Positions 6,992-9,235 of a DNA stretch of 9,235 nt are shown here, piece after piece. Source of the stretch: Candidatus Rokuibacteriota bacterium (lineage in GTDB: Bacteria > Methylomirabilota > Methylomirabilia > Rokubacteriales > JACPHL01); assembly GCA_016188625.1 (NCBI GenBank), contig JACPHL010000056.1, positions 1 to 9,235 of the forward strand, read 5' to 3'. The first letter of the stretch is position 1, and the number at the start of each line of letters is the position of its first letter. Made by a program: the position numbers and the translations under genes. The notes below the pieces were generated by a model. The model ran no database searches, had not been told where the DNA came from, and saw only the letters and a program-made list of their open reading frames with translations.

Positions 6992-9235
6992 TCAGCACTC
7001 GTTGAAGCCGCAGCTATAGCACTTCTTGCACCCCTCCTCGTAGACGAAGGTCGCCTGGCCGCAGTCCGGGCAGATGTCCCCGGCCACGAGCTTGGACGGT
7101 CTGGCCGGCGCCCCGGCCTCCTCCGGCTTGATCTGCCCGGTGTGCTCGGCCAGGATCCGCGCGATCCCGTCGGGGAGCGAGAGGACCCGCTGGGGGCCGA
7201 AGCCGAGCGGCCGCCCGCCGCCGATCCCCGAGAGCTGGCCGATGATCTCCTCCAGCCGGCGGGTCGGGGAGAAGGGCGAGGGCATCCGGAGGGTCAGGGA
7301 GATGAGCCGGCCGATCGCCTCGGCCACGGCCATGGTGTCCGAGCCGGCCTTCCCCACGCTCACGAAGACCTCGAAGGGCTCGCCCTCGCCGTTGGCGTTG
7401 ATGACCACGAAGGCCGTCCCGAGCGGGGTCTCGATCCGGTAGGTCCGGCCGGTCAGGCTCCGGGGCCTGGGCTTCACGACGGCCGGCCCCGGGACCGCCA
7501 TCTCCCGCGGCTCGGCCTTGGCCCGGGCGCCGAGATGGAGAACCTGGTCGTCCTTGCAGCCGTCGCGGAAGACCGTGATCCCCAGGCAGCCGAGCTCCCA
7601 GGCGAGCAGGTACGCGCGGGCGATGTCCTCCGGCGTGGCCGAGTTGGGGAGGTTGATGGTCTTGGAGACCCCGTTGTCGGTGTGCCTCTGGAAGGCCCCC
7701 TGGTGGCGGACGTGCCACTCGAAGGGGATCTCGTGGGCCGTGACGAAGACCCGCTGGACGTCCTCCGGGACCCCGTCGAGCCCGTGGACGACCCCCCGGC
7801 GGGCGACCTCCTCCATGAGGGCCTCGGAGTGGAACCCCCGCTCCCGCGCCGCCTCCTCGAAGCCCCGGTTGATGAACGGCAGGACCCGGTCGCCCACCTT
7901 GTGGGTGAAGGCGAAGGCGGGCTCGATCCCCGAGGAGCAGCCGGCGATCATGCTGATCGTCCCGGTGGGGGCGATGGTGGTCACCGTGGAGTTCCGGAGC
8001 GGGCGGTCGTGCTTGTAGATGGAGCGCGACCAGTTGGGGAAGGGCCCTCGCTCCTCGGCCAGCTTGACCGACTGGTCGTGGGCCTGCTCCTGGATGAAGG
8101 CCATGAGCCGGTCGGCCAGCTCCAGGGCCTGCTGGCTGTCGTAGGGGATCCCCATCCGGAACAGAAGGTCCGCCCACCCCATGACCCCCAGGCCGATCCG
8201 CCGGTTGGACTTCACGGTGGCGTCGATCTCGGGCAAGGGGTAGGGGTTGACCTCGATGACGTCGTCGAGGAAGCGGACGGCCAGCCGGACCACCCGCTCG
8301 AGGTCCACCCAGTCCAGGGTCCACTCCCCGTTCGGGGCCAGGGTCGCGAACTTGGCGACGTTGAGGCTACCCAAGTTACACGCTTCGTTCGGTAAGAGAG
8401 GTTGTTCACCGCATTGGTGAATTACGAACCCGTTGGCGATCATCGTGTGACTCTGCGGCTCCGTCAGATCATAGACGCGCTGCACTCCGGCAGGCTCGAC
8501 CGCGACCACCACGTCGGTGAACTTCCGCGTGTAGAAACGACGGTAGCGGATGTTGTCGAGGCGGGCGCGCTTGGCGTTGATGAACCCGACCTCCTGCCGA
8601 AAGACTTCCCGGGACTCCCCAAAGATTCCGAGTTCAAAGAGCAACCCGTCTGACAGATAGGTCCGCTCCTCTCCGCTGGCAGTCCGGTACGGGAAGACGC
8701 CTTCTCGCGCCGGGCGCGATCGGTCCATGATCTGGCTCTTGATGCCTAGATTAAGCAGAAGGAGCTGGACACCCTGCAGCAGCTCCCGACTCTTGGACGT
8801 GAGCGCGATCCAGGAGCTGTTGCTGTGCGGATTGTCCCGAACGGTGCCGTCGGCCGTGAAGAGCCCCTGAAGAAAACCGACGACGGCTTCGCGCGGGGCG
8901 GAGAAGAGCCTCTCGGGTACCACCTTGCGTTCGGCCGGGACTGCTCGGACTCCCAGACGCTGGAAGAACTCGACGAAGAATTTCCCGTGATAGGACAGAT
9001 GCCACACGTCGCGTGGACGCCGCACGGCATGGATCGGCCTGCCGTACCAGCGGTCGAGGACGGCCTTCAGGCTACCCATGATATCGGCGTCATCGGCGCC
9101 GAAGGTGAATCCCACGCGGCAGTTCCTGTCCCCTGCCCTCAGCCAGCCATCGCCCACCAGCCATCCCAGGGCAAGACCAAGATCTTGGCTCCAGGTCCTA
9201 GGGAGGCTGTGCCGGTAGATACGTCCATTCTTCCC
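6992..9235 (-). CDS. nrdJ: Adenosylcobalamin-dependent (class II) ribonucleotide reductase, intein-interrupted, N-terminus missing
   Basis: The frame stays open to the right edge, giving 747 codons: 274 of intein, then 473 of reductase. The reductase part begins [18 protein letters not shown]. That first Cys (codon 8413-8411) corresponds to the thiyl-radical cysteine of the NPCGEQ motif, with the neighbouring Glu two residues on. A cysteine 11 residues later matches the spacing of the redox partner in Thermotoga NrdJ. Further signatures are [46 protein letters not shown], a TSCPD-type domain (roughly 7450-7280), and a C-terminal tail with CPDC, CKKC and CGFNEC. The last has the CxxxxC spacing of the shuttle cysteines that re-reduce the active site. 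Known role: reduces ribonucleotides to deoxyribonucleotides with B12, independent of oxygen. Apart from the intein it looks intact; the N-terminal part lies outside. Confidence 0.95.
   Translation of the reverse strand, partial: [747 protein letters not shown]
8414..9235 (-). mobile_element. Intein with LAGLIDADG homing endonuclease inside nrdJ (C-terminal 274 residues visible)
   Basis: Translation joins the reductase in frame without a stop. Two dodecapeptide motifs typical of LAGLIDADG endonucleases are present: [12 protein letters not shown] (visible residues 21-32) and [13 protein letters not shown] (120-132), each with its metal-binding Asp (29 and 129). The C-terminal splicing block reads [20 protein letters not shown] and is followed by Cys of the host CGEQ motif. 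The penultimate His is kept, but the last residue is Gln where most inteins have Asn. The first nucleophile and blocks A and B lie beyond base 9235. Base composition differs from the host: 33 of 60 bases are G/C at 8581-8640, against 42 of 60 at 7321-7380. Both active-site Asp residues and the open frame suggest a recent, possibly still mobile element; splicing activity is inferred. Confidence 0.93.

Follow-up and report, generated by a model that had tools for sequence, protein, structure and literature searches.

How is ribonucleotide reductase (RNR) freed from an intein that ends in His-Gln rather than His-Asn, and is such an end an error, a hindrance or an inherited trait? The question is raised by the window, the whole stretch of DNA analysed here (9,235 nucleotides), which is an entire contig (G000:C185) of a Methylomirabilota-type host genome that is 84% complete. 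Very probably, the window carries a working class 1 LAGLIDADG intein from a lineage settled on Gln, placed before the thiyl-radical cysteine of NrdJ. The chemistry is already known, and the window intein joins the Gln-terminated class 1 inteins, a minority that includes a viral RNR intein (PMC4031507), as the sequence-only reading had noted.

The NrdJ intein and its insertion site

The minus strand of the window contains a long open frame without a start (6992-9235) that runs off the contig end. Its first 274 residues belong to the intein and the other 473 to NrdJ, and the frame is open through both the intein and the C-extein (Table 1). The junction reads exactly as the sequence-only reading gave it: the minus-strand codons GTA (8425-8423), ATT (8422-8420), CAC (8419-8417), CAA (8416-8414) and TGC (8413-8411) translate, in frame with this ORF, as Val-Ile-His-Gln/Cys, where the slash marks the junction. 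The identification as an NrdJ intein also holds. The NrdJ barrel domain PF02867 matches downstream of the junction (9.7e-70) and LAGLIDADG_3 (PF14528) upstream of it (6.3e-17); the NF006417 match scores 565 bits over profile positions 279-758. The host protein is a class II ribonucleotide reductase (NrdJ).

Table 1. Features of the intein-bearing nrdJ locus in the window
Feature	Position	Strand	Evidence
NrdJ intein, C-terminal 274 residues (N-terminal ~136 residues off contig)	8414..9235	-	48 related loci
LAGLIDADG-type motif, first	9143..9175	-	near-invariant in alignment A1
LAGLIDADG-type motif, second	8846..8875	-	PF14528 match at residues 117-185; conserved in alignment A1
Intein block F; His 8447-8449, Gln-lineage Met 8441-8443	8435..8479	-	same-site intein alignment
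Intein block G (NGFVIHQ), terminal His-Gln; Gln codon CAA 8414-8416	8414..8434	-	direct reading and relatives
C-extein +1 Cys, aligned to Cys322 of Thermotoga maritima NrdJ	8411..8413	-	phmmer alignment to 1xje, starting C(+1) = C322
C-extein, NrdJ C-terminal part: barrel, TSCPD domain, C-terminal Cys-rich tail	6992..8413	-	PF02867, PF12637; NF006417

The insertion site is E[AS]TNP/CGEQ. In about 40 relatives with a complete insert, its first residue is Cys, preceded by NP (mostly E[AS]TNP), and its last residue directly precedes CGEQxL; one relative, L079, has uninterrupted sequence here. Thus, the intein is an in-frame insert at a conserved site that can be empty, and these shared ends together with the empty site fix the boundary where it had first been placed; a boundary elsewhere is ruled out by L079. 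The insert lies directly before the +1 cysteine. Cys322 of T. maritima NrdJ is the thiyl-radical cysteine of class II RNR. Because the +1 cysteine aligns with it, the nucleophile of the second splicing step would be the enzyme's own radical cysteine. The presence of this conserved residue at +1 also sets the window intein apart from bacterial intein-like (BIL) domains. The second active-site cysteine of NrdJ is 11 residues past +1. L006/L054 and L061 have a further intein, ending in His-Asn, exactly before that cysteine (NEA/CNLGS), and some NrdJ genes of the phylum contain three or more inteins.

The 48 loci related to the window intein are from Rokuibacteriota/Methylomirabilota; the best relative is 79% identical across all 274 residues, and full-length relatives have 409-414 aa. 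The window intein has the two LAGLIDADG motifs of a LAGLIDADG homing endonuclease intein, and block F contains the conserved Asp and His of class 1 (D256 and H263). Its last residue, Gln, is cyclisable and is followed by Cys at +1; Gln is accepted as a class 1 C-terminal residue (PMC4031507). Cys1 and the block B TxxH belong to the N-terminal part of the intein, which is off the contig together with the N-extein. Both Cys1 and TxxH are kept in 21 of 21 full-length Gln relatives. A search of the window's own, incomplete genome for a further NrdJ piece, the missing N-terminal half, found none.

Two other open frames of this genome were noted. One, of 865 aa on the plus strand of the window (2-2599), runs antisense to real genes and is probably a shadow of the high G+C content and no gene. 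A further intein of the same genome (L003, on contig C84) resides in a UvrD/PcrA-like helicase and ends in His-Asn/Ser.

Conservation of the terminal glutamine

Since the contig comes from a single MAG, an Asn codon might have been misread or misassembled as CAA. There is next to no chance of this. A change from Asn to Gln takes two base changes, and about ten other Methylomirabilota genomes, assembled independently, have Gln at the same codon, as CAA in some and CAG in others, which makes an error very unlikely. All close relatives in the phylum are Gln-ended, including the full-length L054-L064 and L083, a 173-aa form without the endonuclease (HEN). The His-Gln end noted from the window alone is therefore confirmed by relatives, and the proposed alignment to same-site NrdJ inteins places Gln in all close phylum relatives.

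Pairwise dN/dS values (Nei-Gojobori) are 0.08-0.22, and constraint is seen in the endonuclease as well as in the final 45 codons; judged by these codon comparisons, the Gln-ended lineage is under purifying selection. The aligned sequences thus present the Gln terminus as a stable inherited trait of the whole intein lineage and no defect. RNR is essential. No PF02867 gene other than the one bearing the His-Gln intein was detected in G035 (99% complete) or G061 (95%), nor was an NrdD. Because an essential enzyme depends on the sole RNR gene detected there, we infer that the His-Gln intein must splice well enough.

A viral origin was rejected, as protein and profile searches of 2.9 million viral contigs yielded no relative. 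In the phage database the sole matches were a distant one to a terminase and an Asn-terminated same-site intein of Moorella phage MTATph1. The latter belongs to an NrdJ encoded by the phage (L084) and is 282 aa long (CGEVPLLPGESC).

Terminal residues of same-site inteins

Genome contigs and five phylum searches provided 86 inteins at this site in stretches of more than 250 aa. They end in Asn (48), Gln (24) or Asp (14), and the penultimate residue varies as well (His, Ser, Arg, Ala, Leu, Val). The Asn and Asp inteins share the NrdJ site with the window intein, and most belong to the same ~410-aa LAGLIDADG family; they differ from it in the terminal residue, and the Asp forms also in the lack of the block-F and penultimate His. 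A tree that excludes the last 25 residues requires nine changes among Asn, Gln and Asp, compared with 33 in shuffles. Of the 24 Gln inteins, 23 belong to a single clade, which has members in Methylomirabilota, Bacillota, Omnitrophota and archaea. Within the Gln group there are two returns to Asn (L141/L142 and L013/L019) and one Asp (L156). The archaeal sisters provide an example: L014/L015 end in Gln and L013/L019 in Asn, and the latter two match L015 at about 70-76% identity along most of their length. The remaining Gln intein, L147, is a separate gain outside the main group; this His-Gln intein has the C-extein CAEQPLPAWGVC in place of CGEQPLLP..C.

The terminal residue is accompanied by differences in block F. 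His at residue -12 is found in 23/24 Gln, 41/48 Asn and 0/14 Asp inteins (13 Leu, 1 Tyr in the last), and Met at residue -10 in 19/24, 1/48 and 0/14, respectively, giving the signatures His..Met for Gln, His..Phe for Asn and Leu..Phe for Asp. In the approximately four independent switch pairs, too few for significance, 2.5 on average changed in the same direction and none in the opposite one; covariation in block F as a statistically proven effect was dropped as a strong claim for this reason. The Asp-terminated inteins are L021, L023, L029, L045, L050, L156-L158, L160, L165 and L172-L175, and all 14 have Leu, Val or Arg for the penultimate His.

Point mutation does not explain every switch of the terminal residue, being ruled out for L156 by its mosaic make-up: the N-terminal third and the last 22 residues are Asp-like and the middle is Gln-like. 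At least one switch thus probably occurred by recombination between same-site inteins. L163, likewise, is Asn-type in the last 22 residues only.

Probable splicing mechanism and alternative explanations

By analogy with known systems, the window intein most likely splices like other class 1 inteins, with Gln as the residue that cyclises. Cys1 would form the N-terminal thioester, and the chain would be passed to Cys+1, the radical cysteine of the enzyme itself. Gln would be cyclised to a glutarimide, aided by the retained block-F His and the penultimate His, and the intein released; an S-to-N shift would then restore ...NPCGEQ. The change from Phe to Met two residues past the block-F His may give space for the longer Gln side chain. 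The putative homing endonuclease would keep the element mobile. Published Gln cyclisation leads to aminoglutarimide, with the same two His residues as helpers (PMC4031507, PMC8229266, PMC8175363), and the features for it are all in the window, save the off-contig Cys1 and TxxH. L083, a natural His-Gln mini-intein, has a predicted structure (pLDDT 82.5, pTM 0.81) that matches the DnaB, RecA and gp41-1 inteins with target TM 0.77-0.87.

Two kinds of Gln-terminated systems can be compared. The RNR intein of Chilo iridescent virus (CIV), like that of the window, is class 1, resides in a ribonucleotide reductase and natively ends in Gln; in a secondary account (PMC4031507, citing Amitai et al. 2004) it splices, and better with Gln than with Asn. 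Unlike the window's, its host enzyme is a viral RNR, and the two are likened by terminal residue and host enzyme alone. The Pyrococcus abyssi and P. horikoshii PolII inteins have His-Gln followed by Cys, as in the window, and a block-F His implicated in Gln cyclisation (PMC8229266, PMC8175363). They differ in being mini-inteins in DNA polymerase II that are slow with Gln. The PolII intein structures 5bkh and 2lcj are absent among the matches listed for the His-Gln model, and kinship in sequence is not claimed.

The slow PolII inteins bring up another explanation, that Gln hampers or regulates splicing, slowing it so that active RNR forms only under certain conditions such as heat or a reducing state. 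The Pyrococcus and Methanoculleus PolII inteins are slow with the native Gln and faster with Asn (PMC4031507), and splicing of the Pab PolII intein depends on temperature and redox (PMC8229266/PMC8175363). For the window intein we consider this unlikely: the Gln lineage is spread over several phyla, is conserved by purifying selection and has a matching change in block F, and the viral RNR intein prefers Gln in the same secondary account (PMC4031507). The suggestion, made from the sequence alone, that Gln slows or conditions splicing is not indicated by a clade so wide and old, nor by the sole detected RNR genes of G035 and G061. Very improbable, and much more so than slowing, is a decaying intein that cannot complete splicing and leaves NrdJ dead. 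A second RNR could be unseen in the incomplete window genome, and some relatives (G059, G057, G070) do have two NrdJ genes. Decay is opposed by the frame open from intein to C-extein, dN/dS of about 0.1, conserved catalytic residues and, again, the sole detected RNR in G035 and G061. Normal class 1 splicing with Gln cyclisation thus remains the preferred explanation.

A glycine-ended insert at the same site

The same NrdJ site is occupied by an insert of 131-132 aa in 13 of 95 phylum genomes (loci L177-L189, in G036, G038, G045, G071, G073, G075, G078, G079, G083, G085, G087, G088 and G094). In ten the C-terminus is intact, and each of these ends in TTYDLYExxTDTW[IL]T[ED]GY[VI]SRG/CGEQ with invariant Ser-Arg-Gly; L189 (damaged), L188 (cut short) and L186 (unassigned) were left out of this count. 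Cys1 and the block B TxxH are invariant, and the insert has Asp for the block-F His, Arg for the penultimate His and Gly for the terminal Asn. Where synonymous sites are unsaturated, dN/dS is mostly 0.06-0.24. The structural model is modest (pLDDT 76, pTM 0.65), and its listed structure matches are all inteins or hedgehog autoprocessing domains.

In G088 (100% complete), G083, G085, G087 and G045 there is no PF02867 gene besides pieces of the insert-bearing one. A second NrdJ-type gene is present in each of G073, G075 and G078; in G073 and G078 it has no intein at this site. A downstream NrdJ intein of G078 (L072) has no C-terminal junction (...SLIAEGLNVSKF...), which suggests a dead or misassembled copy beside the second NrdJ.

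A Gly end cannot cyclise. This leaves three readings: the insert follows a new release route, it cleaves and the RNR re-assembles, or it stays in place and is tolerated. Of these, tolerance is unlikely, since the radical cysteine of NrdJ lies on a loop inside the barrel. Among cleaving domains, type B BIL domains are without block G and only cleave; BIL domains in general lack a +1 nucleophile and are found in variable regions of non-conserved proteins. As the insert-bearing gene is the sole RNR gene detected, by PF02867, in several near-complete genomes, the Gly form may splice without terminal cyclisation. One conceivable path would start with an N-to-S acyl shift at Gly-Cys, after which the freed amine of that Cys would attack the Cys1 thioester. 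Tentatively, and with the chances somewhat against it, we propose that at one NrdJ site the C-terminal cleavage chemistry was rebuilt repeatedly (Asn, Gln, Asp), up to such a Gly form.

In summary, Asn, Gln, Asp and Gly ends occur at one splice site, with recently switched sister pairs. The same-site series makes the change of the last catalytic residue and its compensation testable in one extein context. If the Gly-ended inserts splice, their release step would be one undescribed for inteins in the accessible literature, and the series, above all the Gly form, merits follow-up.
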